DNA from: Herminiimonas sp. KBW02
Lineage (GTDB): Bacteria; Pseudomonadota; Gammaproteobacteria; Burkholderiales; Burkholderiaceae_D
NCBI RefSeq assembly: GCF_003852535.1
Contig: NZ_QAJP01000004.1
Location: 978,719 to 1,042,718, forward strand
Reading direction: 5' to 3'
DNA length: 64,000 nt
Made by a program: the position numbers and the translations under genes. The notes under the pieces are model-generated. The model saw nothing but the letters and a program-made list of their open reading frames with translations. It was not told the origin of the DNA and ran no database searches. Of the stretch, positions 27,652 to 62,107 are shown one piece after another; position 1 is the first letter of the stretch; each line of letters starts with the position of its first letter.

Positions 27652-27654
27652 CGT

Positions 27655-32647: not shown

Positions 32648-32656
32648 CGCTGTCAC

Positions 32657-38347: not shown

Positions 38348-39364
38348 ATGGCGCGCTCAGGATTGTTAAAATCGGATGTAAAAAAAGCCCGAGATTCATT
38401 ATTGGCTCAGCAAATCAATCCCTCTGTCGATGCGGTAAGAGTCGCTCTTGGCAATACTGGATCTAAGACAACCATCCATAAATATCTCAAAGAGTTAGAT
38501 GATGCAGCTGACCGCCCTGCTCCGTCGATAAGTGAATCTCTATTGGATATCGTGAATCGTTTGGCGGCTCAATTGCAGACCGAAGCCGACTCCAAAATTG
38601 AAGAGATTCTTACGCAGAGTGACGAGAAAAATCGCGAGCACATCACCGCAATTTCTGAGCTTCAAAACACGGTTGCTGCCCTGCGTAACCAAATTGGCCA
38701 ACTTGAGGCTGATCTGTTCCAGGAGCAAACATCAAAATCTGAGATGCTAGAGCTCCTCCAAGAAGAGAAGCTTGTTCGACGCGCAGCGGATCAACAGGTT
38801 ATAAATCTTAAGGAACGCTTACTAGAAAACGAGTCATATCGCGCTTCATTAGAAGAAAAGCATCGTCACTCGCGCGAGGCGTTGGAGCATTATCGCCAAT
38901 CGATGAAGGAGCAGCGAGATCAGGATCAACGCCGTCATGAACACCAAGTTCAACAATTGCAGGCTGAAATGCGCCAGTTGCAGCAAAGTATGATCGTCAA
39001 ACAGGATGAGGTCACTCGGCTTAATCAAGAAGGCGCGAGACTAGTAACCGACTTGTCGCACGCGCAGAAATCTATTTACGAGCTCAAAAATCAAGAAAGA
39101 GAGGCCGGGCAAAAATTAGAAAAATGGCACGAAGCTCTACAACGAAACGCGCTGCTTGAACTTCAGATTGGCGAAAAAGACGTGCGTATAGAAGAGCTTG
39201 TAAAGCAAGTATTCGACACATTACTGCAGACAAATGAAATGGGCAAAGAGGCACATCGCTTAGAGTTGGCCCTGGCCGCATCCAACGCGGCGCTCGCAGC
39301 TCAGGAAAAAGTCCATGAACAGATCAGAAAGCACTGGACGCAGCAATCCACAGTTGAAAAATAA
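38348..39364 (+). CDS. KfrA-like DNA-binding coiled-coil protein
   Basis: 338 residues. The first 60 or so form the KfrA N-terminal DNA-binding domain (MARSGLLKSDVKKARDSLLA, then GNTGSKTTIHKYLKELDDAA). The rest, to about residue 330, is one long charged coiled coil rich in Gln, Glu and Lys. Plasmid KfrA proteins are autoregulated DNA-binding scaffolds linked to plasmid maintenance; chromosomal relatives ride on integrative islands next to tyrosine recombinases, as here. A palindrome just upstream fits self-repression. Confidence 0.85.
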   Translation: MARSGLLKSDVKKARDSLLAQQINPSVDAVRVALGNTGSKTTIHKYLKELDDAADRPAPSISESLLDIVNRLAAQLQTEADSKIEEILTQSDEKNREHITAISELQNTVAALRNQIGQLEADLFQEQTSKSEMLELLQEEKLVRRAADQQVINLKERLLENESYRASLEEKHRHSREALEHYRQSMKEQRDQDQRRHEHQVQQLQAEMRQLQQSMIVKQDEVTRLNQEGARLVTDLSHAQKSIYELKNQEREAGQKLEKWHEALQRNALLELQIGEKDVRIEELVKQVFDTLLQTNEMGKEAHRLELALAASNAALAAQEKVHEQIRKHWTQQSTVEK

Positions 39365-39635: not shown

Positions 39636-41564
39636 CTACGTTTTAGCTGACCGAATGTTGTAAACAACGCTCGCGATAATAATTGCCACTATCAATGTTT
39701 GCGCAACGACCGTTTGCATAGTTGGAAAAATTCCGAGCAGTTCTATTTGTGGAAACGGGAGTGGGGAAATCTCGAAAACACCAACCTTCTGCAATGCTGC
39801 CACTCCTTTGCCAACCATAACGAAGGCCAGTATTGCCACTAGTGCTGAGCTGGCAGCAAAGAATTTCCCGATAGGAAGACGAGCTGAAGTGCGAAGCAAA
39901 ACAAATGCAACCACAGTCAATATCAGAATTGCTGCGCCCATACCGAGCAACATATAAATACCATTTCCACCGGTCCAAAGTGCCGCATAGAAAAGGACTG
40001 TTTCAAAAACTTCGCGATAAACTGTTACAAAGGATAAGAGGAAAAGCATCATCGCTGAGCGACGATTGAGTGCCGAGGATAGTTTTTCTTTCACGTATGC
40101 TTGCCAACGTCCCGCCATGCTTTTCTGATGCATCCAAATCCCGACTCCAAGAAGAACAACCGCGGCGAATATTGCCGAGAACCCTTCCGTCATCTCGCGA
40201 CTTGCGCCGCTTAAATCAACCAGGTAAGTCGCCACAGCCCAAGTGACGGCGCCACCGGCTAATGCCACAATCCAACCAGCATGGACGTATACCAGCACAT
40301 CACGTCGATCTGCCTTTTTCAAAAATGCGACCATCGCGACGACAACCAGCAGTGCTTCCAAACCTTCGCGTAAAAGAATGGTGAAGGCGCCAAGGAATGT
40401 TGCAAGCGGATCATCTGTAGCGGTGGCTAATGCGTCTTGCGCTTGGGTCAGCTTTACTTGCAGTTGCTGTTCCGCGTTTTTTGCTTCGTCAAGTTGACCA
40501 CGATTCACAATTGCGCGGAACGCACCCATGCCCTTTTCCAAATCATTGAACAGCTCTTTATTTTTAGCAGCGAGCGCCGGCTCAGCAATTTCAAAGCCAT
40601 CCAGATAGGCAGAAAGAGCCAGTCGAGATGCGTTTGCTTTGTCGCCCGCTTGCAATGCTTGAACGCTCTCTGACAAGCGCTTCTTCGCCAATGCAAGACT
40701 GTCCTCGTTAGAGGCCATCAATTGGTCTGGCTCGCTGCGGAGATGCGCCAAGATTGGACGTGCGTTTGATGCTATCTGCTTTTCCAAACCTGTTTCAGTG
40801 GCTTGCGTTAGGGCGTTGATATTTGGTACCGCATTGTGGAGCGATTTGTTTTCCGTCCATGCTTTCTTACCAGCCGCACGATCAGCATCGGTATAAGACA
40901 TGGTGGATGCAAAAAAGGCGATAGCCCAACGATCATCTTCAGACAGTTGAGCGAAACTTGGCATAGAGGTGCCAGCAACACCGTGGGAAATAATCTGCTG
41001 CAGCGAAAAGACACTTCGCTCTTTAGCACGTTCTTTGTCCGACAAAGCGATCGGAGGAGGATTCAAACTTTTAGCAAGCGGACCGTCACCGTTTCCTGAA
41101 GCACCATGGCACGAAGCGCAATTTGCTTGATACAGTGCTCCGCCTTTTTTGAGATCGGGTACCTGTGTTGGTGAAAGTGGCACTGGATAGACTTTGAGCA
41201 CTTCTGCTGCCAAAGCTCTCGAGTAGTTACCCACCTCTTCAGGAGGCGCTTTGGCAGCAATCATGCTTTGAAGCTTGCCTGCTTGTGCCACCAATTTCGC
41301 GCTAGCGTCTGTTTTTGGTAGCTCGGACAATTGCTTTTCTGCGTTCGCAGAGAATTCCTGCATCTCGCCATATTCGTCTTTGCTAACCACTACGCCATTC
41401 TGTACCGCTGCGCCGTAATCAACTGCCAAGTAATCCAGCACTTGCCATATTTGCTTTACCTTTTCTTGAGTCACCGTATCTTGGGCATTAGCAGAAATAA
41501 CGCTGGTTGAAAGAGCCAAGAAAACGGCAGTAATGAAAAGGCTAAACTTTGAACGGATATGCAT
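39636..41564 (-). CDS. pbrT: Cytochrome c / FTR1-family permease fusion, PbrT-like metal uptake protein
   Basis: 642 residues. A signal peptide (about residues 1-27) is followed by a periplasmic part with a cytochrome c domain: the heme site CASCH at residues 149-153 and a methionine ligand in GTSMPSF. A helical linker then leads to the FTR1-type permease, whose two REXXE metal motifs are REGLE and REVFE within about seven membrane segments. FTR1 proteins import ferric iron; PbrT of lead operons is a member. The position beside pbrBC, pbrA and pbrR argues for a role in lead resistance. An iron function remains possible. Confidence 0.85.
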   Translation of the reverse strand: MHIRSKFSLFITAVFLALSTSVISANAQDTVTQEKVKQIWQVLDYLAVDYGAAVQNGVVVSKDEYGEMQEFSANAEKQLSELPKTDASAKLVAQAGKLQSMIAAKAPPEEVGNYSRALAAEVLKVYPVPLSPTQVPDLKKGGALYQANCASCHGASGNGDGPLAKSLNPPPIALSDKERAKERSVFSLQQIISHGVAGTSMPSFAQLSEDDRWAIAFFASTMSYTDADRAAGKKAWTENKSLHNAVPNINALTQATETGLEKQIASNARPILAHLRSEPDQLMASNEDSLALAKKRLSESVQALQAGDKANASRLALSAYLDGFEIAEPALAAKNKELFNDLEKGMGAFRAIVNRGQLDEAKNAEQQLQVKLTQAQDALATATDDPLATFLGAFTILLREGLEALLVVVAMVAFLKKADRRDVLVYVHAGWIVALAGGAVTWAVATYLVDLSGASREMTEGFSAIFAAVVLLGVGIWMHQKSMAGRWQAYVKEKLSSALNRRSAMMLFLLSFVTVYREVFETVLFYAALWTGGNGIYMLLGMGAAILILTVVAFVLLRTSARLPIGKFFAASSALVAILAFVMVGKGVAALQKVGVFEISPLPFPQIELLGIFPTMQTVVAQTLIVAIIIASVVYNIRSAKT

Positions 41565-45758: not shown

Positions 45759-46130
45759 TTACTTTTGAACTAATAGAACAGTTACTATTGCCTCGCCATT
45801 TACATTTTCAACCGTAAATTTCACTTTATCACCGGCTTTAACATTGGAAAGTAGAGCTTTGTCTTTCACTGGAAACGACATTGTCATAGGCCCCATTTCA
45901 ACTGTTGTGCTTTTGATGCGCCCGTGTTTCAAAGTAATATTGTTGCTCTCCTTATTGATGGCTTTGACTTCGCCATCCGCCAAGACTGTCGTGTTCGTTG
46001 TTTTCGCTGGCATGCCATCCATCTTCATACCTGCCATGTCCATACCTTTGCTACCTTGTTCAGCGTAGACATCCACAGCCAACAAAGAAAATCCACAGAC
46101 GGCTACCAGATTTAAAAGCGATTTTTTCAT
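45759..46130 (-). CDS. cusF: Periplasmic copper-binding protein, CusF-like
   Basis: 123 residues from the ATG at 46130 (AAGGAG upstream), with a signal peptide ending VDVYAE and a Met-rich linker (GMDMAGMKMDGMP). The small beta-barrel carries LKHGRI and MGPMTMSFPV, giving the histidine and two methionines of the copper site. The tryptophan that caps copper in E. coli CusF is not present at the expected place. It is the last gene of the cus operon and should hand copper or silver to CusB/CusA. An earlier start at 46205 is unlikely. Confidence 0.87.
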   Translation of the reverse strand: MKKSLLNLVAVCGFSLLAVDVYAEQGSKGMDMAGMKMDGMPAKTTNTTVLADGEVKAINKESNNITLKHGRIKSTTVEMGPMTMSFPVKDKALLSNVKAGDKVKFTVENVNGEAIVTVLLVQK

Positions 46131-46147
46131 TTGATACTCCTTAGTAG

Positions 46148-49100
46148 TTAAATTGATTTGGTTCGTACTGCTAAACGTAATTTGCGTTCTTGAAGCAAAC
46201 GCCATGCCGCTGGAATCACAAAAAGCGACAACAATGGTGCGGTAATCATGCCACCCACCATCGGTGCAGCAATCCTTTGCATTACTTCAGAGCCAGCACC
46301 GCTGCCGAACATAATTGGGATAAGACCGGCCAAGATAACTGCCACTGTCATGGCTTTGGGACGCACACGCAGTACAGCTCCTTCTCGTATCGCTTCCGCA
46401 ATGAGTTGCTTGCTCAGCGGTTGGCCTGACTGCAATTTTTGATTCAAGGAGTTGCGTAGATACACAAGCATCACAACGCCGAACTCAGCCGCCAGTCCCG
46501 CCAATGCAATGAACCCAACCGCAGTCGCCACCGAGACGGCATGACCCAGTAACCACACAAACCAGAAGCCGCCGATAAGTGCGAAAGGCACAGTCAACAT
46601 GAGCAGGAACGCTTCCGAGGTAGAACGGAACGCCAGATACAGAAGAATGAAGATAACCGCCAACGTTAGCGGAATGACGGTTTGTAACTTGGCGACGGCT
46701 CGCTCCAGGTATTCAAACTGTCCCGACCAGCCTATGGAATATCCAGGTGGGAGTTTTACTTCTTTTGCCACTGCTGCCTGCATTGCCTTCACCGCTGTGT
46801 GCAAGTCGGTCCCACGCACATCGACATAGACCCAGCCAGAAAGCCGCGCGTTCTCACTGCGTATCATTGGTGGCCCGTCGGTCACCTTGATGTTCGTAAT
46901 ATCCCCCAGCCTTACCTGCGCACCTCTCTCTGTGACTATAGAAAAATCACGCAATGTTTGCACAGAGTTACGGTAATCCTGAGGGTAGCGGACATTGATA
47001 GGAAAGCGCTGGCGTCCATCCACAACTTCACCAACGTTCTCACCACCAATCGCGGACGAGATAACCGATTGCACGTCCGTCACCGCAAGGCCATATCGCG
47101 CTGCTTTTGCCCGGTCGATATCGACATCGATATAACGCCCACCGCTTACGCGCTCCGCCAATGCAGAAGTCACCCCTGGCACTTTTTTGACGACGGCTTC
47201 GATTTGCGTGGCGATTCTGTCGATTTGGCCTAGGTCGGCACCAGACACCTTCACACCGACTGGTGTCTTGATTCCGGTCGAAAGCATGTCGATACGGTTA
47301 CGGATAGGCGGCACCCAAACATTCGATAGCCCAGGAACCTTGACTATCCGGTCCAATTCTTCAATGAGCTTTGCAGATGTCATACCAGGACGCCATTGGT
47401 CTTTCGGTTTGAACTGAATCGTCGTTTCAAACATCTCCAAAGGTGCAGGGTCGGTTGCAGATTCTGCACGGCCGGCTTTACCAAAGACCGTAGCGACTTC
47501 AGGCACTGTCTTAATGAGGCGGTCTGTCTGCTGCAGCAATTCGCTGGCTTTGGACGCAGACAATCCCGGCAACGCAGAAGGCATGTACAGCAAATCACCT
47601 TCGTCCAGAGGTGGCAGGAACTCGCCACCTAGCTTGGACAGCGGAATCACCGTCAGGACGAGAGCAATAAACGCTATCGCAATCGTCCATTTCGGATGCG
47701 CCAGGCTAGCATTTAACCAAGGCCTATACACTCGTATCAATACGCGATTAATCGGATTCGCAGCCTCGCTCGGGATGCGCCCGCGAATCATGTATCCCAT
47801 CAATACTGGTATCAACGTAATCGCCAGGCCAGCCGCGGCAGCCAAGGTGTAGGTTTTTGTATAGGCCAATGGTGCAAATAGCTTACCCTCCTGCGCTTCC
47901 AGGGCAAATACAGGAATGAAAGATAGCGTAACGATAAGGAGCGAGAAGAACAGCGCTGGCCCAACCTCAATCGCAGACTCTGCAATCAAATCCCATCGCT
48001 CACCCGGGCTAATTTCCTGATTTGGATGTGCGTGCGAATAGGCTTCAAGATGCTTGTGCGCATTCTCAATCATGACAATTGCCGCATCGACCATAGCACC
48101 CACCGCAATCGCGATGCCACCCAACGACATCAAATTAGCATTGACTCCTTGGTATCTCATCACAATGAAAGCCGCGAGCACGCCCAAAGGAAGCGAGATG
48201 ATGGCGACCAAGGCACTACGCAGATGAAATAGAAATATCGCGCAAACCAGTGCGACCACAACAAACTCTTCAATCAGCTTGTCGCGCAGATTGGTCACTG
48301 CCGCGGTAATCAGTTTGGAGCGGTCGTAGGTCGTGACGATTTCCACGCCTTTAGGAAGCGAACTTTGCAAAGTAGCGAGTTTTGCTTTGACTGCTTTGAT
48401 GGTTTCCAGCGCATTCTTACCAGAGCGCATGACGACGACGCCACCAGCAACTTCACCTTCGCCATTCAACTCAGCAATCCCGCGCCGCATTTCAGGCCCA
48501 ATGCGAACTGTCGCGACATCCCGAAGCAACACAGGTGTCCCTGCCTCATTTGCGTTGAGCAGAACATTGCGAAAATCCTCTAGTGAACGCAAATACCCGT
48601 GCGAACGCACCATATATTCTGTCTCAGCCATTTCGACGACCGAACCACCGGATTCCTGATTTGCCTTCGCCAATGCATCAAGCACCTTTGCATGCGAGAT
48701 ACCGAAAGCACGTAACTTGTCCGGGTCGAGGATGACTTGATACTGCTTCACCATGCCTCCGATACTGGCGACCTCGGCCACGTCTGGAACGGTTTTGAGC
48801 TCGAACTTCAGAAACCAGTCGTTCAATGTTCGCAACTGACTGAGGTCGTTTTGCCCAGTTCGGTCGACCAGCGCATATTCAAATACCCAGCCGACTCCAG
48901 TTCCATCCGGCCCAAGTTCTGCGCGTACACCCTGAGGCAAGCGACTTTGCACCTGGCTGATGTACTCCAGCACTCTGGAGCGAGCCCAGTATTGGTCCGT
49001 GGCATCGTCAAAAAGAACATAGACGAATGAGTCACCAAAAAAGGAATAACCCCGAACGGTCTTGGCGCCGGGAACGGCCAACAGCGCCGTAGTTAGTGGG

Positions 49101-49300
49101 TAAGTGACCTGGTCCTCCACTATCTGTGGTGCCTTGCCGGGATACTGAGCGCGAATGATGACTTGCGTGTCTGACAAGTCTGGCAATGCATCCAAAGGCG
49201 TTTTGTTCAACGACCAGAGCCCCCATCCTGCGATGACGAGCGCGGCAAGTAGTACCCAAAATCGATTGGTAATAGACCAGCGAATAATTCGCGCAATCAT
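46148..49300 (-). CDS. cusA: Copper/silver efflux RND transporter, CusA-like
   Basis: Inner membrane heavy-metal RND pump of 1050 residues, normal for the family. It begins [20 protein letters not shown] and has the early [20 protein letters not shown]. The proton-relay segment in TM4 reads [20 protein letters not shown], with a single aspartate, which is the copper/silver (HME4) pattern and differs from the CzcA form found later in the window. Its start overlaps the cusB stop (ATGA). It should expel Cu(I) or Ag(I) from periplasm to outside with CusB and CusC. Confidence 0.93.
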
Positions 49301-50790
49301 CGCTTGCCTCCAACCGGTTTCACGCTTTCGAGCAGATAGCCGTCATCGTATTCCTTGAACGAGAACTCAACTTCCTGCCCTGCTTTTATTTCGCTGAATT
49401 GCTCAGGACTTGACTTGTTAAAGTCCATCGTCATCGCCCCCCATTCAAGCTCCGGAATGGGTTTGTGCGACAGGGTCAATGCTTTTGGCGTTACTTTCTC
49501 CACCGTGCCTATGCCCCGGTGAACAGCAGATGCTGCCGGCTGCATTGTCTGGTTGTTTCCAGCAAACTTAGGTAGCACTGACTTCAAGCTTGCTTCCGAA
49601 TCAATAAGGAATTGTCCCGAGGCGACCACTTTCTGCCCCTCATTCAATCCACTCAAAATCTCGGTATCGTTGCCGGTATCTCGGCCAGTCGTAACCACCA
49701 CAGGTTGCATGCTGTTGTTTTCACCAACCACTAGGACGACGGATTGCTTGCCGCTTGCAATCACGGCCTCACTCGGAATCAGAAGCCGCGAAACTGGCTT
49801 CTCAGCATCCAGGCGAACACGCATGAGCATGCCAGGTGTAAGACTGCCATCACGATTATCCAGCTCCAGTCGAGCCTGCAAGGTCCGCGTTGCAGTGCTG
49901 ATACCCGGCAGGATTTCGCGAACCTTGCCGTTATACTTTCTATTCGTGTCCCCGGAGAACATCGCTTCAACCGTCATCCCGGAGCGCACGGCATTGCTGA
50001 GCGTCTCTGGTACCTCTGCTACCAGCCAAACCTTGTTTAAACCAGAAACTTTCGCGATAGTCACACCTGGCGCAACCATCGCGCCATCGCGCACGGACAA
50101 CTCGGTAATAACACCTGTAACTGGCGATGTCAGGGTGTAGTGTTTTTGTGATTGCCCGGTACGGTCCGCCTGATTTATCAATCCGTCCGGGATAGACATC
50201 GCTCGCATTCTTTGTCGAGCGGCTGCCGCCAGTTCGGTATTGCCACCACGTTTGAGTGCCAGATACTCCTCTTGCGGTGCAATCCAGTCGGGAACGAAAA
50301 TAGAAGCAATTGCCTCTCCGCGTTTAATGCGTTGCTGAGGTGAGCGGGCATACAGTTTTTCGATGTATCCCGTCACGCGACTTTGCACGACTTCCGATGC
50401 ACTCTCATCAAACTGAGTCGTGCCGACCATTTCAAATGCATCTCGTACTTCTTCACGTCTTACGGTTGCAAAGCGAATACCGAGATTCTGTTGAAGTGCT
50501 GGACTGACTTTAACCCCACCATCTTCCGAACCTTCATCCGCATAAACCGGAACCAACTGCATATCCATAAAAGGACTTTTGCCAGGCTTATCGAACTTGT
50601 TTCCCGGGACCATGGGGTCATGCCAGTACAGGACTTTGCGCCCCGTCTTTGGGTCAACTTTCCCGGTTGTCGCGCCGGATGTAGTTGCGCCCTCCATATT
50701 TCTTTGTGTCCCGAACCAATACCCGCCAAACACCAGACCAGCACCTGCTAGTACCAAGACAATCGCTTTCAATGCGAATTTTGTTTTCAT
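49297..50790 (-). CDS. cusB: Copper efflux adaptor CusB with fused CusF-like domain
   Basis: 497 residues from the ATG at 50790; the gene overlaps the cusC stop. After an N-terminal anchor or signal ([20 protein letters not shown]) comes the CusB heavy-metal-binding entry [20 protein letters not shown]. Barrel-sandwich and hairpin domains follow. The C-terminal 70 residues are a CusF-like domain: [20 protein letters not shown] and [10 protein letters not shown], with His, Trp and two Met ligands complete. This adaptor therefore carries its own metal chaperone, in addition to the separate CusF downstream. Confidence 0.92.
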
Positions 50791-52094
50791 TTCATTTCTC
50801 CTGCAGACACCATGTCGTGTGGAACCACGTGATATTCCAGCGCAGCCCAAGTCAGTGCTGCTTCTCTTTCAAGCTCAACTATTTGCAGCCGTCGTTCCAA
50901 CAACATTTTTTTCGCATTGAAAACGGCACTTAGACTGCCGGCACCCGAACGGTAAGCTGCAGTTGCCAGCTCCACCTGCTGTGATGCAGGCGGTAGCAAT
51001 TGCGTATTGAGTTGCACGACACGGGATTTGAGACTTTCCAGAGTGGATGACTGATTCTCGATTTCAGTTTGCAGGTCACGCAATGCCTCTTCGTACTGCA
51101 TCCTGGCTTTGGTACCCAGGGCAGATTTTTCAGCGATGTCGCGATTCTGTTTTTGTGCGCGATTAACCGCTAGAGGAATGCTGATGCCAAAGGACACCAT
51201 GTTTGAGTACTGGCTACCCCGTTGACTATATGACGCTTCGAACGACCAGTCAGGATGGCTTTCGCGTGTCGCGACGGTGCTGTCGGCATCAGCCAGATTG
51301 ACCGCTCGACGCGCAGATAAAAGCATTGGATGATATTTTTCAAGTTCTTCTACTGGCAACCCAGGCACATGTGAGGTCAGTGTAGGCGTCTCGTCCGCGA
51401 CAGTAGCGGCTGGCATGCCGGTCCAACGGCTTAACGCAAGGCGTGCATTTCTTAAATCCTGTGAGTTCTTTCGCGTTGCATCTTCCGCCTGAGAAAGCGT
51501 CAATTGTGCTTGCATCACGTCCGAAGCGCTTACTTTGGCACCACGATGTGCAGCATTCATCGCATTGAGGTCTGCCGCGGCCTCTTTTTCCATTGCGCTG
51601 ACCAATGCCAATGTGCGCTGGCCGTAGAGTACATTGACCCATGCCTTGGCTGCTTCTTCCCTTACCTTGGCAATGGTTTCTAGGTATGTACTTTCTTCCA
51701 TTTCGACAGCGCGTTGGGCACGTTCTGAACGTGCAGCACGCTTATCGGAAGAGACCCATTGCTGTTCGATTCCAATCCTACGCATGGTCATAAAGTCACT
51801 CGTAGTGCTGTAACGGTCGCTACCCGTCACTGGTAGATTGTCGATGCCTACTTTCAGCATCGGGTCTGGTAACTGGTCAGCTTTCGCCGCGGATTCGCGA
51901 CTGGCCGACACGGAAGCATTGGCAGCTTTGGTCAGAGATGACCGCTGCAATGAAAGCCGCAATGCTTCGTTTAATGTAAGCCCGTTAGATTGGGCGTGAA
52001 CAAGAGATGTGCCAACAGTCAGCGCCAGTAAAACGCAGACTCGACAGAGATTGCGCGACTGACAATTCAGTCGCGCGTGGATACGCAAAAACAT
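50787..52094 (-). CDS. cusC: Outer membrane efflux channel of the cus system, CusC-like
   Basis: TolC-family protein of 435 residues from the ATG at 52094 (GGGGGT upstream); 52133 is an alternative start. A signal peptide ends SLVHAQ; there is no lipobox. The two repeats of long helices are visible, for example RQSEDA-like segments and LESLKSRVVQLNTQLLPPAS. It should form the outer membrane exit for CusBA. Its sequence is of the shorter czc/cus-associated TolC group and not the NodT group seen at the left end. The stop overlaps the cusB start (ATGA). Confidence 0.87.
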   Translation of the reverse strand: MFLRIHARLNCQSRNLCRVCVLLALTVGTSLVHAQSNGLTLNEALRLSLQRSSLTKAANASVSASRESAAKADQLPDPMLKVGIDNLPVTGSDRYSTTSDFMTMRRIGIEQQWVSSDKRAARSERAQRAVEMEESTYLETIAKVREEAAKAWVNVLYGQRTLALVSAMEKEAAADLNAMNAAHRGAKVSASDVMQAQLTLSQAEDATRKNSQDLRNARLALSRWTGMPAATVADETPTLTSHVPGLPVEELEKYHPMLLSARRAVNLADADSTVATRESHPDWSFEASYSQRGSQYSNMVSFGISIPLAVNRAQKQNRDIAEKSALGTKARMQYEEALRDLQTEIENQSSTLESLKSRVVQLNTQLLPPASQQVELATAAYRSGAGSLSAVFNAKKMLLERRLQIVELEREAALTWAALEYHVVPHDMVSAGEMK

Positions 52095-52165
52095 ATAACC
52101 CCCAGTAGTAAAGACGAACGCCGACCACGGCACATTGCCGGTCAGCGGAACAACTGAGGGTTAAA

Positions 52166-52920: not shown

Positions 52921-53346
52921 CTACTTCAAATTTTTGAAAAGATCACTTAATTCCTTATATGTACTCACGGCCTGCTCCATTGCAAATTCATAGCGGATTG
53001 CGGTGGTTGTAAATACTGCTCGTTCCGCATCAAGCTCCACGGTATTGCCATCGATACTCTGTTGATAAGGGGTGCGATATAAAAGTTTAGGTAATACATC
53101 ATTCACGGCAGCTGATGGCGGTAAGGTCGTTGATGGCGCGAGCTTATTTGGCGCTGATAACGTTCGATTTAAGGCCGTCTTAAAATCAATGTCTCGCGCT
53201 TTATAGTTTGGTGTATCCGCATTCGCGATGTTAGAAGCGACGATCTCCAATCGTTTGCTAAACAACCGTACCGATGTTTCCCAGAAGCGATCATCCGAAC
53301 TTTGGTTTCCAATAGGTATGTGCCCCTTGTTTGTAACATTGTCCAT
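52921..53346 (-). CDS. Orphan flagellar basal-body rod protein FlgB-like
   Basis: 141 residues from the ATG at 53346 (AAGGAG upstream), the normal FlgB length. The N-terminal rod signature is clear: RLEIVASNIANADTPNYKAR, then DIDFKTAL; the C-terminal heptad helix FAMEQAVSTYKELSDLFKNL is also typical. FlgB normally forms the proximal rod next to the MS ring, and its gene sits with flgC in a flagellar operon. Here no other flagellar gene is present; it follows the phosphoethanolamine transferase by 11 bp in a metal-resistance island. Whether it works in motility is unknown. Confidence 0.85.
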   Translation of the reverse strand: MDNVTNKGHIPIGNQSSDDRFWETSVRLFSKRLEIVASNIANADTPNYKARDIDFKTALNRTLSAPNKLAPSTTLPPSAAVNDVLPKLLYRTPYQQSIDGNTVELDAERAVFTTTAIRYEFAMEQAVSTYKELSDLFKNLK

Positions 53347-53357
53347 TTGACCGCTCC

Positions 53358-54989
53358 TTATAAACGACGACATTGTCTTAACATGTCCAGCTTTGGCGTG
53401 TAGACAGCATTTTCAATTTCTGTCATGCCAAGAATCGTGTGATAAATGTTGTCATGACTAAACGATTTGGTTTGCAATGACTTCATGCAGTTGGCGTCAA
53501 CTGCCATCCGGCTGCGATACCCTTCCGACATCCATAACAAAAGGGGGATGTTTTTCTGGACATCTGGCGCAAAGTAATACGGTGCGCCATGCAGGAACAA
53601 ACCATTCTCACCAAGCGACTCACCATGGTCAGAGACGTATAGAAATACGGTGTCGTACTTGTCTGACAGGCCTTGGAGCATGCTGATCATTTGGCTAAGA
53701 ACATGATCGGTATAAAGAATTGTGTTGTCGTAGGCGTTATGTATCTCGTCTAGAGAACATGCCCCTAAATCCGTTGTACGACATGCTGGCTTGAAAACTT
53801 CGAAGGCTGCGGGATATCGACGCCAGTATGCTGGCCCATGACTTCCAATTTTGTGTAAGACCATTAGTTGATCTGTCGATTGTTGAGTAATTGATTCCGA
53901 CAATCCGGTGAGCAATATCTCGTCATGGCAGTAGTCCTGTTCACACAACGATGGAGCCATTTGAGGTTGCATAACGACAGTTTTAACCCTGACACAAATT
54001 CCTTTGCAGCCGCTATTATTGTCTCGCCACTCTACTGCGATGCCATTTTTAGATAGTGTATCAAGTAGATTTGTTCTGTTACGCTCGTTGACAACGTCAA
54101 AGTCTTCTCTACCTAATCCAGAAAATATGCAGGGTAATGAAACAGCTGTGGATGTTCCACAACTCGTCATGTTGGTAAAACGATAAAGATTGCTTATCGC
54201 ACTGAGTTTCGGGTTCGTCTGACGCGAATGTCCCATCAGCTGGAAATCGACTGCTCTGGCCGTCTCCCCAATGACGAGGAAGATGAGCAATGGTTTAGAA
54301 CTAGAGGTCGAAATGACGCGATGCGTGTTTCCATCAATATCTGTTACGGCAGAATCTGATGGCCTGGCTTCATGACGTGCATAATTCCAAGCTGCATACA
54401 TCAGATTGCCGGGGTTCATCATGTAACGTACTGATTTTTGCTCTCTTAAGAACGTGGCAAATTTCCCCGATTGAGGCAGTATCGCCACAAGAACAAAGAT
54501 CGCGCCAATCCAAATGAATACGATCCGTTGAAGAGCGTATCTACGAAATGAAATAGGCTGAAATTTGATCTTCCATAGCACCCATGCTGGAGCAAAGCCA
54601 AACACTAAAATATAGGCAAGAAGACGGACATTAAGCAAACCAAATGCTTCGGTTGAGTCTGTTTGCGCGACATTGCGAAACATCTCAAGGTCAATTCCAA
54701 TACCGAAATTGTCGACGAAATAAGCGCTAGAAGAAGCTACGATAATTAAGGTGACGCCTAGCAGCCTCATTGCAGTACGCCCGGGGATCAATAAAAGCAA
54801 GACGGCGTACAACCAGGTAAAAAGCAAAAGCAAAGAAAAAATGAAGGCAGCTCCGGAAAATCCAGATAGCGACATATTTTTCGTGAGCGTCGTCCAAAAT
54901 TGCCAATTACAAAGGGCGACTAAGACGATAGCCGTAGCCGAAGCAAATAAAATGTCCGGATAGGACTTAAGTAATTTGTTCGCAGGCAT
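53358..54989 (-). CDS. eptA: Phosphoethanolamine transferase, EptA-like
   Basis: 543 residues: five N-terminal membrane helices and a periplasmic alkaline-phosphatase-fold domain. It transfers phosphoethanolamine from phosphatidylethanolamine to lipid A, lowering negative charge and giving cationic peptide resistance. Visible active-site pieces are GETARAVDFQLMGH, TSCGTSTAVSLPC with the nucleophilic threonine, HKIGSHGPAYWRRYP and VSDHGESLGENGLFLHG with metal ligands; many cysteines for disulfides are present. It is preceded by a glycosyltransferase gene 9 bp upstream and followed by the orphan flgB. The substrate could be a protein instead of lipid A. Confidence 0.92.
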   Translation of the reverse strand: MPANKLLKSYPDILFASATAIVLVALCNWQFWTTLTKNMSLSGFSGAAFIFSLLLLFTWLYAVLLLLIPGRTAMRLLGVTLIIVASSSAYFVDNFGIGIDLEMFRNVAQTDSTEAFGLLNVRLLAYILVFGFAPAWVLWKIKFQPISFRRYALQRIVFIWIGAIFVLVAILPQSGKFATFLREQKSVRYMMNPGNLMYAAWNYARHEARPSDSAVTDIDGNTHRVISTSSSKPLLIFLVIGETARAVDFQLMGHSRQTNPKLSAISNLYRFTNMTSCGTSTAVSLPCIFSGLGREDFDVVNERNRTNLLDTLSKNGIAVEWRDNNSGCKGICVRVKTVVMQPQMAPSLCEQDYCHDEILLTGLSESITQQSTDQLMVLHKIGSHGPAYWRRYPAAFEVFKPACRTTDLGACSLDEIHNAYDNTILYTDHVLSQMISMLQGLSDKYDTVFLYVSDHGESLGENGLFLHGAPYYFAPDVQKNIPLLLWMSEGYRSRMAVDANCMKSLQTKSFSHDNIYHTILGMTEIENAVYTPKLDMLRQCRRL

Positions 54990-54998
54990 ATATGGAAC

Positions 54999-56045
54999 TC
55001 AATGTTTATTTGTCCACATGACAGATTCTTGATAGGAACCGATCGCAGGATTTACGCTATCTTCAGATTGAGATGGAGGCTGGTATTGTTCTAGAAGATA
55101 GAGAGGACGACGCTTACTCTCAATAAAAAGACGTCCTAAGTACTCACCGATAATTCCAATAGCCATCAATTGCAGTCCGCCGAGAATCATCACAGTGACG
55201 ATCAATGTTGGAAATCCCCTCACCGACTCGCCAATGAGCAATGTCTTTACCAAAAAATACAAGGCATAAAGAAATGCCATACTCGAAAAGACCAAACCTA
55301 GATAAGTTGCGATTTTTAAAGGTGCGACCGAAAAGCCAGTAATGCCTTCAAGTGCAAAGTTCCATAGTCTCCAGTAACGCCACTTGGTTGTGCCGGCTGC
55401 ACGGGCGTCACGGTCGTAATCCAACGTCACATGTTTGTATCCCACCCAGGCAAACAAGCCTTTCATAAAGCGATTGCGCTCTTCTAAGAGATTAAGTGCA
55501 TCTACCGCGCGTTTGCTCAGCAAACGAAAATCCCCAACGTCTGCTGGTACTGGCACATCACTTAAGCGATTAATGACTCTATAGAAAGCATGTGCGGTTG
55601 CTTTTTTTAGCCACGACTCACCGCTGCGCTGGCGCCTACGCATATTCACAATGTCGGCACCGGCCAGCCATGCCGTGATCATTTTCGGAATGAGTTCAGG
55701 AGGGTCTTGAAGATCGGAATCGATAATGATCGCAGCATCCCCGGTTGCCAAACGCAACCCAGCGCTCATGGCCTCTTCTTTGCCAAAATTTCTGGTGAAA
55801 CGAGCTATGCCGACCTTTGGGTTATCTGCACGTAGTTGCCCTAACAGAGCATATGATCTGTCAGTGCTGCCATCATCAACGTAGATAATTTCCCAATCAT
55901 GATTAAGGTCTGAAAGTACATTTTTCAAACGTTCATGAAAAATCGGCAAAACACTCTCCTCGTTGAACAGAGGGACAATTACGGACAACTTGTATGAGGA
56001 AGTCTTGACGTCTTCAAAACTAGAGATTGAATATAGGTTTTCCAT
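54999..56045 (-). CDS. Family 2 polyprenyl-phosphate glycosyltransferase
   Basis: 348 residues from the ATG at 56045 (GAGAAG upstream); a start at 56123 adds 26. The GT-A domain has LSVIVPLFNEE, IYVDDGSTD and IDSDLQDPPE, the nucleotide and metal binding sites of GT2 enzymes. Two C-terminal membrane segments (LGLVFSSMAFLYALYFLVKT and TLIVTVMILGGLQLMAIGII) place it with the GtrB/ArnC/DPM1-type group that makes undecaprenyl-phosphate sugars. It probably supplies a sugar for envelope modification together with the adjacent eptA. The sugar is unknown, and no matching flippase or GT-C gene is present. Confidence 0.88.
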   Translation of the reverse strand: MENLYSISSFEDVKTSSYKLSVIVPLFNEESVLPIFHERLKNVLSDLNHDWEIIYVDDGSTDRSYALLGQLRADNPKVGIARFTRNFGKEEAMSAGLRLATGDAAIIIDSDLQDPPELIPKMITAWLAGADIVNMRRRQRSGESWLKKATAHAFYRVINRLSDVPVPADVGDFRLLSKRAVDALNLLEERNRFMKGLFAWVGYKHVTLDYDRDARAAGTTKWRYWRLWNFALEGITGFSVAPLKIATYLGLVFSSMAFLYALYFLVKTLLIGESVRGFPTLIVTVMILGGLQLMAIGIIGEYLGRLFIESKRRPLYLLEQYQPPSQSEDSVNPAIGSYQESVMWTNKH

Positions 56046-56264
56046 CGCACTTCTCTTTTCTTTCACGACAAATTGCGGGCGCGCGTGGACGATGAATGAA
56101 TAAAGATCGAAATATTTATTCATTCATTTGAAAACTAATCCAACAAGCGCAAACAAGAGCTATCAGACGCAGCGGCTAAGGCTGCGACGAAACTTCTGTG
56201 CAAGATGTACTTTTTAGTTATTAACAGTGAACCGACAGCTGCCCACGAAATCGCAGGCGGACTG

Positions 56265-56972: not shown

Positions 56973-57917
56973 TCATTTTTCTGGTGTGAGATATTTTTCG
57001 GATTCACCAGTCGGACCAAAGGTGTGCTCGTTCGTGGCTTGATCACATGCTTCTGCCTCCATCTGTATCGTTGTATGGTGAATTTCCCATTGCTCGGCCA
57101 GTGTTGTTTGAATTTCTTTCAACAAATTATCTTTGTTAAAGGCCTCAAGATCGCTAACGACGTGCATGGTCAAACTAATTTTTCCGCTTGTAATTGACCA
57201 AACGTGCAAGTCGTGAATACTTCGGACGCCTGCAATATCGGACACCGATTTGCGCAATTTTTCTAGATCAATATGCTCAGGCACCCCCTCCAGTAGGACA
57301 TTTATACTTTCTCTTAACAAAATCCATGTCCGTGGAAGAACCCAAAATCCTATCCCGACCGCAATTACCGAATCAACCCAGGCCCATCCTGTAAAGCGAA
57401 TGATCAATGCGCCAGCGATAACGCCAACTGAACCCAACATATCGCTCCATACCTCAAGATAAGCCCCCTTGACATTGAGACTTGCATCCTTTCCGGAGCT
57501 CAGCAATTTCATACTGATCAGATTAATGATCAGTCCCAGAGACGCAATAATCAGCATCCCCATCGATTGGATTTCTATCGGTGACTTAAAGCGGCGATAT
57601 GCTTCGTAGAGAATGTACATGGCCACGAAAAACAGCATGATCGCGTTGAATGACGCAGCTAATATTTCGAAGCGATGATAGCCAAACGTGCGTCGTGAGT
57701 CGGCAGCACGTTTGGCTATTTGAATCGCTATCAGCGCAATAGCTAGTGCGCTGGCATCCGTCAGCATGTGTGCGGCATCAGACAGCAATGCCAGGCTTCC
57801 TGTTACCAACCCGCCTATTACTTCAGCGACCAGAAAAGTTGACGTTAATACGAACGCTATCAGCAGATACTTCTGATTCTGCCCTTTTGGTAGTGCATGG
57901 TTATGACCGGCGCTCAT
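56973..57917 (-). CDS. czcD: Cation diffusion facilitator, CzcD-like zinc/cobalt/cadmium exporter
   Basis: 314 residues from the ATG at 57917 (GAGGAA upstream). CDF transporters exchange cytoplasmic Zn, Co or Cd for protons. Six membrane segments are visible; the metal site residues are HMLTD in TM2 and EVWSDMLGS in TM5, where Glu replaces the usual His as in CzcD. The N-terminus SAGHNHALPKG is a short His-containing tail. The C-terminal cytoplasmic domain contains the HDLHVW motif. It belongs with czcA/czcB further right and is probably part of the same regulon. Confidence 0.92.
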   Translation of the reverse strand: MSAGHNHALPKGQNQKYLLIAFVLTSTFLVAEVIGGLVTGSLALLSDAAHMLTDASALAIALIAIQIAKRAADSRRTFGYHRFEILAASFNAIMLFFVAMYILYEAYRRFKSPIEIQSMGMLIIASLGLIINLISMKLLSSGKDASLNVKGAYLEVWSDMLGSVGVIAGALIIRFTGWAWVDSVIAVGIGFWVLPRTWILLRESINVLLEGVPEHIDLEKLRKSVSDIAGVRSIHDLHVWSITSGKISLTMHVVSDLEAFNKDNLLKEIQTTLAEQWEIHHTTIQMEAEACDQATNEHTFGPTGESEKYLTPEK

Positions 57918-57987
57918 GAGATTCCTCAAATAGATTATCTGTCTCGTTGAATATACGTTTAACGTGCAACCTTCCAGCCAACTCTTG

Positions 57988-58278
57988 TCAACGTTCCTTG
58001 CCACACTTTCCGCAGAATTTCATTCCCTGAGCCATATCTGCATTACACCCCGTACATTTATGTGGAGTCATCGACGTGCCGCATTGTTGGCAAAACCGGG
58101 CGGCACTGCTATTTGAAGTGCCACACGCATTGCACAGAGTCGATGGTGCTGCCGTGGGCTGTGATCTACCCCAGTTTTCGTCCTGATTTCTCGGATAAGA
58201 ATTGTCATATCGACCGTGATGACCACCGCCATCCCGACGATGATGTCCGCCACCTAAAAGTCGCTCAAAGATGCCCAT
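57988..58278 (-). CDS. Double zinc-ribbon protein
   Basis: 96 residues from the ATG at 58278 (AAGGAAAACATC upstream). The N-terminal half is Gly/His/Arg-rich and probably flexible (GGGHHRRDGGGHHGRYDN). The C-terminal half holds two zinc ribbons: CNAC with CQQC, then CTGC with CGKC. Its role is unknown; the His-rich start and its place between mgtC-like and czcD genes make zinc buffering or sensing a reasonable guess only. Confidence 0.8.
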   Translation of the reverse strand: MGIFERLLGGGHHRRDGGGHHGRYDNSYPRNQDENWGRSQPTAAPSTLCNACGTSNSSAARFCQQCGTSMTPHKCTGCNADMAQGMKFCGKCGKER

Positions 58279-58339
58279 GATGTTTTCCTTTTTTCTTTGT
58301 TAACTGCCATAAGATACAAATCCACTTTCCACTACCAGA

Positions 58340-58786
58340 CTACTCAGTTTCATTTTTAGCCCTGCATTTACTGCGCGTAAAACGTTTCCATCCAGGGAAA
58401 TGGTGAAGCACTAACATGCCATAGATGAGTGCAGTAGTTAGTATTGCGAGCACATACATACCGAACGCACTTGCCATACCAACAGATGCAGTCGCCCATA
58501 AGGTAGCTGCTGTCGTTAGTCCTTCTATTCTTCCTCGAACTTGGAGAATCACGCCTGCGCCAAGGAAGCCGATTCCACTCACAACTTGTGCAGCAATCCT
58601 GGTTGGCTCGCCATTAACGACATGAAGCGAGATAAGACTAAATGCACAAGAGCCGATCGAAATAGCCATACAAGTACGCACGCCTGCATCGCTTCCTTGA
58701 CGCTCTCGATCAAGGCCAATAATTGCGCCTAACAGACCTGAAAGCACGATCCTGGCGGCAAATAGCAATTCCATTTTCCAGTCCAC
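58340..58786 (-). CDS. MgtC/SapB-family membrane protein
   Basis: 148 residues with four membrane segments. The conserved N-terminal part LSGLLGAIIGLDRERQGSDA followed by GVRTCMAISIGSCAF, and VVSGIGFLGAGVILQ, identify the MgtC/SapB family. MgtC-like proteins are linked to survival in low magnesium and modulation of membrane ATPases. This is the short form without the C-terminal ACT-like domain. The likely start is a GTG at 58786 with GAGGA upstream; ATG 58774 is an alternative. It lies between czcA and the zinc-ribbon gene. Confidence 0.88.
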   Translation of the reverse strand: MDWKMELLFAARIVLSGLLGAIIGLDRERQGSDAGVRTCMAISIGSCAFSLISLHVVNGEPTRIAAQVVSGIGFLGAGVILQVRGRIEGLTTAATLWATASVGMASAFGMYVLAILTTALIYGMLVLHHFPGWKRFTRSKCRAKNETE

Positions 58787-58800
58787 ATTAGTCCTCTTCT

Positions 58801-58875
58801 TAGTACTAATACGTTCGTACTATTCAATACCTTCTTGAATAGGGGCGTCGGAGCATACTTAGCCCCGACACCCCC
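58801..58875. repeat. Cluster of inverted repeats between czcA and the MgtC-like gene
   Basis: TAGTAC/GTACTA (58801-58806 and 58817-58822), TATTCAA/TTGAATA (58821-58827 and 58835-58841) and GGGGCGTCGG/CCGACACCCC (58842-58851 and 58865-58874, one mismatch) follow each other in this 96-bp gap. The GC-rich one lies just past the czcA stop and can end that transcript. The first two may belong to the promoter of the MgtC-like gene. Confidence 0.5.
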
Positions 58876-58882
58876 CCCTCAC

Positions 58883-61800
58883 CTAGATACTTTTAGAGCT
58901 TAAATTGCCCCATTTTTTCCAGAACGCGAGTTTTTGCATGAAACTTGGTTGTGAGTTTTCGGAATCAGCAGGCCCTTCTTCGTCTCGGCGATGCGCTATC
59001 TTGTACAACAACGGCAACACCAATAAGGTCAATATCGTCGAAGAAATAATTCCGCCAATGACGACAGTGGCGAGTGGTCGCTGAACTTCTGCGCCGGTAC
59101 CTGTGGCGATCGCCATCGGTACAAAACCTAAGGACGCAACCAACGCCGTCATCAATACTGGCCGCAGTCGTGTTAATGCGCCCTCGTGTATCGCGATATC
59201 AAGCGTTCTACCCTCTTCGCGCAAACTTCGAATAAATGAAATCATCACCAAGCCGTTAAGAACAGCGACACCTGAAAGCGCGATAAAGCCAATCCCCGCC
59301 GAAATTGAAAGAGGAATGTCTCGCAGCCAAAGCGCTGCGATGCCACCGGTTAGTGCGAAAGGAACACCGGTGAAGACAAGCATCCCGTCCTTGGCATTGC
59401 CAAACATAACGAAGAGAAGCAGGAATACCAGCAATAGAGCAATTGGTACAACGATCTGTAGACGTTTTGTGGCGGATTCCAGTTGCTCAAACGTGCCGCC
59501 CCAACTGATCCAGTTGCCTGAAGGTATTTTGACGGTCTCTTGAATCTTCTTCTGAGCCTCCATTACGAACGAACCGATATCACGTCCCCGCACATTGGCT
59601 GTCACAATAACGAGACGTTTCCCATTCTCACGACTGACCTGATTAGGGCCTGGTGCGAGATTAAGGTCTGCTACTTCGCCGAGTTGCGTATAACCAACTT
59701 GACCGGGCGTAGGGCCCTCCGCAATAGGCAAACGAATAGGTATACGCTTTATAGCGTCAATATCGTTACGTAAGTCATCAGGCAAACGAACAAGGATGTC
59801 GAATCGGCGATCACCTTGAAACAATATCCCTGCCTCTCGTCCACCTACAGCAATAGACAGAGCATCCTGAATATCAGAAACATTGATTCCCAGTCTTGCT
59901 GCCTTATCTCTATCTATCTGAACTGTTAGCATAGGTAAGCCAGTAGTTTGCTCTACTTTCACGTCAGCAGAACCCGGCACGCTAGATAGTGCGTCGGAAA
60001 TCTGATCCGCAGTGGCGTTCATGACGTCCATATTGTCACCAAATACTTTCACCGCAACGTCGGCGCGCACACCTGAAATCAGTTCATTGAAACGCATTTG
60101 GATTGGCTGCGTAAATTCATAGTTATTGCCGGGGACCTGAGCTACAACCTTCTGCATAGCCATGACCAACTCTTCTTTTGTACGTTTAGGAGACGGCCAT
60201 TCAGATTCTGGCTTTAAAATGATGAAAGTGTCAGCGACATTCGGCGGCATCGGATCTGTCGCAATTTCTGCCGTACCAATTTTTGCAAAGACGCGTTTTA
60301 CTTCAGGGAAAGTTCGAAGATTCCGCTCGAGCTCCTTCTGCATTTCAATCGATTGCGTCAAACTAGTTCCAGGTATTCGCATCGCTTGCAGAGCAATATC
60401 ACCCTCATTGAGACTCGGGATGAATTCACTTCCCATACGTGTCAACAACAAGCCGCAAAGCACTACCGTAACGCTAACAGTTGTAAGAACGAGCGGTTTT
60501 CTATCCATTACCCAATCCAGCATCGGTTCATAGCGACGTTTGGACCAGCCAATCAGACGATTCTCTTTTTCAGAAACTTTGTCACCGATGAGAAGCGCTA
60601 CAGCCGCGGGGATAAAGGTAAGCGAAAGAATCATCGCTCCAAATAAAGCCACCACCACCGTAAATGCCATCGGATGGAACATTTTCCCTTCTACCCCTGA
60701 TAGGGCAAAAATCGGGAGATACACAACCATGATGATCAGTTGCCCGAAAATCAGTGGACGACGCGCCTCCTTTGAAGCTTCAAAGACTTCGTGGAAGCGT
60801 TCGTTTCGTGTCAAAGACCTTCCAGCGTGCGCTTGGGCGTGTGATAGCCGCCTAATACAGTTTTCTACGATAACAACGGCACCATCAATGATGATCCCGA
60901 AATCTAGCGCCCCCAAACTCATAAGATTGGCGCTTACCTTGTTATTGACCATGCCGGTGAACGTAAAAAGCATGGCCAATGGAATTACCATCGCGGTAAT
61001 AATTGCAGCGCGAATGTTGCCTAAGAAAAGAAAGAGAATCGCGATGACAAGTAATGCCCCCTCCATCAAATTCTTTTTAACTGTTGCAATTGCCTTATCA
61101 ACCAAAACCGTGCGGTCATAGACAGTAGCCGCCACCACACCTTCCGGTAATGTCCGGCGAATTTCGTCCATTTTTTTGTCTACGGCTTCGGCCACCGAAC
61201 GGCTATTTTCGCCAATCAGCATGAACACCGTACCTAAGACTATTTCACGAGAATTTTCTGTGGCAGCACCTGTTCGCAATTGAGAGCCAAGCATAACTTC
61301 AGCTACATCCTTGATTCGCACAGGAATACTTTGTTTGGTACCGATAACGATATTTGAAATATCGTTCAAGTCAGTCACCTGTCCTGGGGCACGAATCAAG
61401 TACTGTTCGCCACGTTTCTCAATGTAACCGGCACCGACGTTGTTGTTATTGCGTTCCAGGGCTGTAACTAAATCCGCTAAAGAAAGCCCGTAAGACATCA
61501 ATTTCCCGGGGTATGGTGCGACTTGAAATTCCTTTGCGTTGCCGCCAATAGTATTGATTTCTGTGACGCCAGGGACATTACGTAATTGCGGTTTGATAAT
61601 CCAGTCTTGGATCTCTTTCAGATCGGTCGGCGTGTAGGGCTTTCCATCCGGTTTCAATGCACCTTCTTCAGCCTCGACTGTCCACATATAGATTTCACCG
61701 AGACCAGTCGAAATTGGGCCTAGCGCTGGGACAACACCTGGAGGCAACTTATCTTTTGCTTCTTGAATTCGTTCGTTGACCAGTTGTCGAGCAAAATAGA

Positions 61801-62107
61801 TGTCGGTCCCTTCCTTGAAGATGACCGTTACTTGGGACAGGCCATACCGCGAAATGGAGCGCGTTTGCTCCAATTTAGGCAGACCTGCCATAACGGTTTC
61901 GATTGGATAGGTAATCCGTTGTTCAGACTCCAATGGGGAATAGCCTGGAGCGCTGGTGTTAATCTGAACCTGGACATTGGTAATGTCTGGTACAGCATCG
62001 ATAGGAAGTTTCTGGTAACTATAGATACCAAATGCTGCAATACCTAATGTCATTAACATGACCAGCCATCGCTGGTCGATGGCAAAGCGAATGATTTTCT
62101 CAAACAT
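58883..62107 (-). CDS. czcA: Cobalt/zinc/cadmium efflux RND transporter, CzcA-like
   Basis: Heavy-metal RND pump of 1074 residues, inner membrane. It begins MFEKIIRFAIDQRWLVMLMT. The TM4 segment LDFGIIIDGAVVIVENCIRR has the Asp-Asp-Glu set (DxxxxxDGAxxxxEN) characteristic of CzcA-type divalent cation pumps, in contrast to the CusA form upstream in the island. It would export Co, Zn or Cd with CzcB and an outer membrane CzcC presumed to lie beyond the right edge. It lies 14 bp after the PII-like gene. Confidence 0.93.
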   Translation of the reverse strand: MFEKIIRFAIDQRWLVMLMTLGIAAFGIYSYQKLPIDAVPDITNVQVQINTSAPGYSPLESEQRITYPIETVMAGLPKLEQTRSISRYGLSQVTVIFKEGTDIYFARQLVNERIQEAKDKLPPGVVPALGPISTGLGEIYMWTVEAEEGALKPDGKPYTPTDLKEIQDWIIKPQLRNVPGVTEINTIGGNAKEFQVAPYPGKLMSYGLSLADLVTALERNNNNVGAGYIEKRGEQYLIRAPGQVTDLNDISNIVIGTKQSIPVRIKDVAEVMLGSQLRTGAATENSREIVLGTVFMLIGENSRSVAEAVDKKMDEIRRTLPEGVVAATVYDRTVLVDKAIATVKKNLMEGALLVIAILFLFLGNIRAAIITAMVIPLAMLFTFTGMVNNKVSANLMSLGALDFGIIIDGAVVIVENCIRRLSHAQAHAGRSLTRNERFHEVFEASKEARRPLIFGQLIIMVVYLPIFALSGVEGKMFHPMAFTVVVALFGAMILSLTFIPAAVALLIGDKVSEKENRLIGWSKRRYEPMLDWVMDRKPLVLTTVSVTVVLCGLLLTRMGSEFIPSLNEGDIALQAMRIPGTSLTQSIEMQKELERNLRTFPEVKRVFAKIGTAEIATDPMPPNVADTFIILKPESEWPSPKRTKEELVMAMQKVVAQVPGNNYEFTQPIQMRFNELISGVRADVAVKVFGDNMDVMNATADQISDALSSVPGSADVKVEQTTGLPMLTVQIDRDKAARLGINVSDIQDALSIAVGGREAGILFQGDRRFDILVRLPDDLRNDIDAIKRIPIRLPIAEGPTPGQVGYTQLGEVADLNLAPGPNQVSRENGKRLVIVTANVRGRDIGSFVMEAQKKIQETVKIPSGNWISWGGTFEQLESATKRLQIVVPIALLLVFLLLFVMFGNAKDGMLVFTGVPFALTGGIAALWLRDIPLSISAGIGFIALSGVAVLNGLVMISFIRSLREEGRTLDIAIHEGALTRLRPVLMTALVASLGFVPMAIATGTGAEVQRPLATVVIGGIISSTILTLLVLPLLYKIAHRRDEEGPADSENSQPSFMQKLAFWKKWGNLSSKSI

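Follow-up and report, generated by a model that had tools for sequence, protein, structure and literature searches.

A FlgB paralogue that recurs beside metal-efflux genes and may act on the host flagellum

Described relatives and the gene run of the window

Several described systems resemble the locus studied here. In Cupriavidus metallidurans, a flgB-czcP operon belongs to the czc region, and FlgB is described as being of unknown function (PMC9045368). In the same organism flgB goes up under a metal mix and flagellar genes go down under metals (PMC11647585), and a proteome study did not detect FlgB (PMC11647595). Of the genome papers, that on CH34 (PMC2864759) treats the gtrMAB genes of these islands and that on BS1 (PMC7019866) mentions flgB in the legend to a figure; among the open-licence papers searched, we found no report on the island FlgB family. 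Pseudomonas aeruginosa likewise ties metal resistance to flagella under zinc stress, where CzcR is required for swimming and flagellar gene expression and zinc abolishes swimming without CzcR (PMC9769499). Two described phosphoethanolamine transferases are also relevant: Campylobacter jejuni EptC, which modifies the rod protein FlgG, lipid A and other targets (PMC10525099), and MCR-12, whose gene lies between czcCBA and cusRS on a plasmid for metal resistance (PMC13373230).

The window, by which we mean the whole 64,000-nucleotide stretch of Herminiimonas sp. KBW02 that was analysed, has a head-to-tail run of GT2, eptA and flgB on the minus strand within a metal island. The end of the GT2 gene is 9 bp from eptA, and eptA is 11 bp from the flgB ATG. 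The run and its surroundings, in window positions, are:

56973..62107, minus strand: CDF transporter, zinc-ribbon protein, MgtC-like protein and CzcA-type RND pump, upstream of the run (Pfam for CDF, zinc ribbon and MgtC)
54999..56123, minus strand: GT2 glycosyltransferase (PgfS/ArnC/GtrB-like), first gene of the run (PF00535; best NCBIfam model NF047588, 309 bits, below its cut-off of 500)
53358..54989, minus strand: EptA-type phosphoethanolamine transferase, 543 aa (PF08019 and PF00884; NF028537 at 557.5 bits, cut-off 500)
52921..53346, minus strand: metal-island FlgB paralogue, 141 aa (TIGR01396 at 85.2 bits, cut-off 59.05)
45759..52133, minus strand: copper/silver-type efflux cluster, downstream of the run (ORFs; OEP Pfam for the outer-membrane factor only)

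From reading of the sequence, we take the genes of the downstream cluster to be CusF-, CusA-, CusB- and outer-membrane-factor-like; the RND pump upstream is, from its ORF, presumably CzcA-like. The first-pass annotation of this DNA had described an EptA-like gene followed after 11 bp by a complete FlgB-like gene, which the ORFs, Pfam, NF028537, TIGR01396 and the choice of start confirm, and had left out GT2, the third gene of the run. It had also placed the pair on a metal island, as the CDF and CzcA-like genes upstream and the Cus-like cluster downstream bear out. Its further statement that FlgB is the sole flagellar gene of the window agrees with our search, in which no other was labelled by a 75-protein reference that includes flgA, flgC-H, flgM and flgN (E 1e-6).

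The window EptA contains the stretches GETAR, TSTAVSLPC and SDHGES, all of which we take to be catalytic or zinc-binding motifs. It shares the EptA family with MCR-12 and other EptA/MCR enzymes, as its NF028537 score shows, and MCR-12 is its top-scoring MCR model, but at 659 bits on NF047438 it falls below the cut-off of 1200 and is less than 60% identical to every plasmid hit.

The flgB frame is open up to 53373. We prefer the ATG at 53346 because AGGAG lies 7 bases upstream and because, in a related genome of the same genus (G140), a stop closes the frame just before the equivalent ATG. The predicted model of the protein (mean pLDDT 83.2) matches the solved FlgB chain 8wk3_R with Z 15.2 over 108 aligned residues (2.0 A, 39% identity), against a Z of only 7.8 for the best non-flagellar structure. 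The likeness to Salmonella FlgB (PDB 8wk3, 7bin; TIGR01396) thus comprises the family score, the predicted fold, the stretch NIANADTPxYKxxDIDF and the equivalent of F45; unlike flagellar FlgB, the island copy has neither flagellar gene neighbours nor the operon setting with flgC. G140 has the same GT2-eptA-flgB three-gene run, and comparison of its flgB with that of the window gives a dN/dS of 0.043 at a dS of 1.1, which indicates that the island flgB is under purifying selection. The pMOL30 flgB of C. metallidurans (Rmet_5971) falls in the same clade and has the same type of setting (flgB-czcP operon, czc, gtrMAB), and the window FlgB is 40.6% identical to it over 83% of the query; its neighbours are CzcP and GtrMAB, whereas those of the window flgB are EptA and GT2. 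CzcR of P. aeruginosa regulates the normal flgB operon, whereas here a separate FlgB gene lies inside the island.

Other parts of the window hold further genes of interest. A KfrA_N protein (plasmid replication region DNA-binding; 38348-39364) adjoins the metal genes and hints at a plasmid-derived island, and 39636-41564 joins an FTR1 iron permease and cytochrome c domains in a single frame. A CBASS-like set occupies 31709-35439 on the minus strand, with a SMODS nucleotidyltransferase (34138-35439), an S_4TM effector (31709-32656) and two ORFs between them, and 21568-30042 encodes a bacterial alpha-2-macroglobulin-like protein and, after it, a transglycosylase-transpeptidase of the PBP1C type.

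Recurrence and phylogeny of the island FlgB

A collection of one genome per species (84,980 species) was scanned with a C-terminal alignment, which returned 179 relatives, and the best 80 were kept. Eleven of these best 80 lie within flg operons and 69 are non-operonic. A metal-efflux or resistance gene from our strong list is found within 10 kb of 62 of the 69 non-operonic copies and of none of the 11 operonic ones (Fisher p 3e-9; best 80 of 179 relatives), where the 11 operonic loci are the only control for metal context and flanks are at most 10 kb per side and shorter at contig ends, so that some neighbours are unseen. Neighbours were labelled by tblastn with our own 75-protein reference, in which a CzcA label at about 25% identity may stand for a non-metal RND pump; L129 is counted in the 69 though tblastn gave its FlgB no label. 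Seven of the 69 show no strong-list metal gene within flanks of up to 10 kb (L107, L110, L117, L123, L136, L147 and L150). Among them, L110 and L150 are short contigs, L117 sits at a contig end, and L123 and L147 carry CopK-like labels; L107 and L136 have flanks that are long enough, yet without a strong-list metal gene. The transferase and the rod-type protein had been taken in the first-pass annotation to travel together on a metal island: the FlgB half of this recurs (62/69), and EptA lies near only one of the 69 (best 80 of 179 relatives). What recurs is FlgB with metal efflux, not FlgB with EptA.

Named hosts among the 69 include Cupriavidus, Zoogloea, Undibacterium, Massilia, Herbaspirillum, Sideroxydans, Methylotenera, Achromobacter, Azospira and Accumulibacter. 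Within the family of the host, close copies occur in at least 7 of 145 genomes, its own included, a lower bound set by an E-value gap from 1.6e-34 to 2.0e-26 together with the C-terminal sequence; G032, which has the same FlhA coordinates as the L158 genome, carries a more distant copy that the E-value cut missed. Plasmid copies are found in Cupriavidus, Janthinobacterium and on one Klebsiella variicola plasmid, mostly near czc, cad, ncc/cnr or cus-type genes; for the copy on Janthinobacterium pJAB4138, no efflux gene was seen within 8 kb. The plasmid flgB genes of Sphingomonas, Piscirickettsia, Salmonella and P. aeruginosa were false leads, as they sit in whole flg operons. One 57.9-kb contig of a MAG from a marine rock biofilm carries two island FlgB copies (L091 and L104), both of which have a CzcP-like ATPase and czc-like genes nearby.

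The first-pass annotation had raised the possibility that the FlgB copy forms its own clade, and this is what the tree shows. In a tree of 108 FlgB rows and 134 columns, built after identical sequences were merged, one branch (SH-aLRT 97) separates 65 island copies from 39 operonic rows and four rows from Pseudomonas copper islands; L129, L033 and the operonic L159, L161 and L167 have no row because the motif pattern missed them. The 65 are mostly betaproteobacterial and include the K. variicola plasmid copy, one assembly labelled Geobacteraceae and unplaced MAGs, and this main clade spans at least nine named families. Because the scan had selected relatives by their C-terminal sequence, the tree was rebuilt from the part before DxNxV. 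That part alone again gives one change, with a support of only 66, and the C-part alone gives 98.

The four Pseudomonas copper-island rows group with the operonic FlgB of P. aeruginosa, the sole Pseudomonas housekeeping row, with a support of 99. A single origin of all island copies, Pseudomonas included, has an AU p of 0.054. The Pseudomonas copper-island flgB is, on this sequence comparison, probably a second recruitment. On Pseudomonas plasmids, the metal islands at L085, L035, L084 and L087 each hold a solitary flgB next to copB/copA or cus-type genes.

Docking position, ends and N-terminal extension

Full secretion of Salmonella FlgB depends on residues 9-18 and 39-58, and F45 is the residue by which it docks on FlhB (PMC9307174). 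The equivalent position is F in all 39 operonic rows and in the window copy, and among the 65 island copies it is F in 41, I in 13, L in 6, V in 3 and Y in 2, that is, always hydrophobic or aromatic. In Salmonella, I, L and V at the docking position secrete less well than aromatic residues (PMC9307174), and one of these three replaces the docking Phe in 22 of the 65 island copies.

Both ends of the protein, in contrast to operonic FlgB, are changed in the island copies: the N-terminal LDxxL is lost (alignment columns 4-8), and the C-terminal helix is altered (columns 137-149) with replacement of the A(A/V)IQG stretch. Column 144 has no residue in common between the two sets, with A in 34 and V in 5 of the 39 operonic rows versus L in 47, M in 17 and I in 1 of the 65 island copies. 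In the four Pseudomonas copies this column is still A or V, and so the remodelled C-terminal end marks the main clade only. Suppressor genetics in Salmonella place the contact of FliE with FlgB between G119 and G129 (PMC8546590), and the equivalent region falls inside the remodelled helix of the island copies.

Island copies also differ in their N-termini. Type-A copies, to which the window FlgB belongs, have short N-termini without an FxxxL extension, and type-B copies, which include most relatives outside Cupriavidus and the group of the window, carry a variable, partly low-complexity extension of 50-108 residues. Of 56 extensions, 49 have a usable Met start and 38 of these are distinct. An F-x-x-x-hydrophobic pattern is present in 38 of the 38 distinct extensions, which are related sequences, compared with a mean of 7.6 and a maximum of 16 of 38 in 2000 shuffles; it lies at residues 27-41 in 37 of them and at 61 in L113, owing to an upstream start. 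Since FlgD export needs residues 2-5 and F36-L40 (PMC9307174), the type-B extension looks, by analogy, like the export signal of an early flagellar substrate. The idea of a FliE-FlgB fusion was also considered, and comparison of the extension with a FliE profile gave an hhalign probability of 3.5% over 24 columns.

Possible roles of the island FlgB

The support from sequence and context shown here consists of a separate clade, the metal-island context, flagellated hosts, a kept docking position, changed ends and purifying selection. On these grounds we think it likely that the island FlgB acts through the flagellar export gate and the rod base. Our reading of the whole is more tentative, and we would give it somewhat less than an even chance: the island flgB may be a dedicated, metal-inducible FlgB paralogue that is exported through the gate and alters the rod base as a brake on new flagella. 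Under metal stress, the protein would be made together with the efflux genes, an induction published for C. metallidurans and presumed for the species of the window. The flagellar type III export gate of the host would recognise it by the hydrophobic residue that corresponds to F45 of Salmonella FlgB, and it would arrive at the rod base and there compete with normal FlgB, leaving the rod base stalled or altered. New flagella would in this way be held back while metal is high. We propose competition and a stalled or altered rod base because neither end is like that of normal FlgB, and the altered parts include the stretch that contacts FliE in Salmonella; we favour a brake, as a suggestion that falls a little short of even odds, because the FliE-facing ends are changed and flagellar expression falls in C. 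metallidurans. Several observations tell against the reading as a whole: FlgB was missed by the C. metallidurans proteome study, 22 of the 65 island copies have I, L or V for the docking Phe, the type-A copies, that of the window among them, lack the N-terminal extension, and the clade is weakly supported once the C-terminal part used to select the scan is left off. Put more generally, and held with greater reserve, metal islands may send a decoy FlgB through the host type III gate as a mobile motility-control module that would have been recruited at least twice, in the main, mostly betaproteobacterial clade and in the Pseudomonas copper islands.

The effect on motility could also have the opposite sign. 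The island FlgB might replace or supplement normal FlgB as a spare part, such that flagella are still built under metal and the cell swims away, a reading that we consider rather unlikely although it draws on the same export-related evidence as the brake. Two observations speak for it and against a brake. Within one lineage of copper islands (Zoogloea-/Rhodocyclales-type), 15 of 19 loci have an HD-GYP open frame whose start follows FlgB at a distance of 1 or 9 bp; HD-GYP enzymes break down c-di-GMP, which usually favours motility. The second is that P. aeruginosa needs CzcR for flagellar genes, which it keeps on, and for swimming during zinc stress (PMC9769499). A spare part is harder to reconcile with the consistent change of the ends that would be expected to pack with FliE and neighbouring rod proteins, while the hosts keep an ordinary FliE (found in 24 of 24 host genomes searched, single in 23 and doubled in G570, which also has two FlhA loci). 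Moreover, the host genome (G000) retains its normal flgB, and the flagellar genes of C. metallidurans fall under metals (PMC11647585).

The HD-GYP proteins themselves are membrane proteins encoded near the island FlgB (L143:10127-11422 and 18 similar loci). The motif HHExxDGxGYP is present in 18 of the 19, the remaining one being a shorter frame, and one protein tested has an HD_5 Pfam match.

Unlikely, and more doubtful than a spare part, is a role independent of the flagellum, in which the island FlgB would be a cytoplasmic or periplasmic protein of a metal-resistance envelope response. Such a role would suit the efflux genes that usually adjoin (62/69 among the best 80 of 179 relatives) and the envelope genes that are sometimes near (GtrMAB in Cupriavidus, EptA, PAP2 and DgkA). 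It is at odds with the docking position, which is kept, with the lack of a signal peptide evident by eye in the island FlgB, and with the hosts. FlhA, the gate of flagellar export, scores above its family cut-off in 52 of the 55 host genomes searched and in 267 of 399 genomes sampled from the order, a contrast whose p of 6e-6 overstates the evidence because the hosts are related and the background is unmatched by genus, so that these are not independent events. The host set was drawn from 49 of the 69 loci and 7 further genomes, and 55 of these 56 were searched. Three hosts lack FlhA, which would favour a flagellum-independent role: L113, a proteobacterial MAG that is unplaced; L123, which carries a Geobacteraceae label; and L135, a MAG of Sulfuritalea. 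Their assemblies, of 2.4, 2.6 and 4.9 Mb, may be incomplete or misbinned.

The first-pass annotation had suggested, beside another envelope role for the FlgB copy, a dedicated enzyme-substrate pair, with FlgB modified with phosphoethanolamine by the adjoining EptA as Campylobacter FlgG is by EptC, and this we now regard as very improbable. Both systems do combine a rod protein with a phosphoethanolamine transferase (PMC10525099), and eptA adjoins flgB, co-oriented, in the window, G140 and G274, all three outside the scan. Against this, EptA lies within 10 kb of FlgB in only one non-operonic locus, that of Massilia sp. CF038, and is absent near the other 68 of 69 (best 80 of 179 relatives, flanks of up to 10 kb), which rules out the pair as a general rule. 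The EptAs that do accompany FlgB are mutually distant, with those of Massilia and G274 being 38% and 34% identical to the EptA of the window, and the host has a second EptA elsewhere (G000:C10:363876-365459; NF028537 605 bits; 37% identical to the first). The distance of the Massilia and G274 enzymes suggests that the neighbourhood of EptA and FlgB was probably joined repeatedly and is optional.

Looser associations of the same kind occur on plasmids. A phosphoethanolamine transferase lies about 4 kb from FlgB on the K. variicola plasmid and about 5.5 kb from a copper-island flgB on a Pseudomonas kurunegalensis plasmid. PAP2 and DgkA genes are present in G274 and on the K. variicola plasmid, PAP2 in Massilia and DgkA in G099; the diacylglycerol that such transferases leave behind is recycled by DgkA. 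In Cupriavidus islands, gtrMAB often takes the place of EptA. We read EptA and GT2 as part of a set of envelope-modifying genes on the island, and not as necessary partners of FlgB.

A passive hitchhiker or misplaced housekeeping gene is hardly tenable: genes do move easily in such islands, but the dN/dS of 0.043, a single clade that spans at least nine named families and the probable second recruitment in Pseudomonas copper islands all argue against passive carriage, and misplacement, which the first-pass annotation had itself set against its proposal, is ruled out by the tree and by the separate housekeeping flgB that remains, with flagellar neighbours, on contig C15 of G000.

These results carry a warning for annotation, in that a flgB in a metal island is not evidence of a flagellar cluster or of an EptA substrate. 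The pMOL30 flgB of the model metal-resistant C. metallidurans, whose function is given in print as unknown, is now placed in a clade found in metal islands, whose hosts nearly always have flagella and whose members retain the docking site but have remodelled ends. Its placement there raises the testable question of whether metal resistance brings its own control over the flagellum. If it does, a resistance island would control motility through a structural decoy rather than a regulator.
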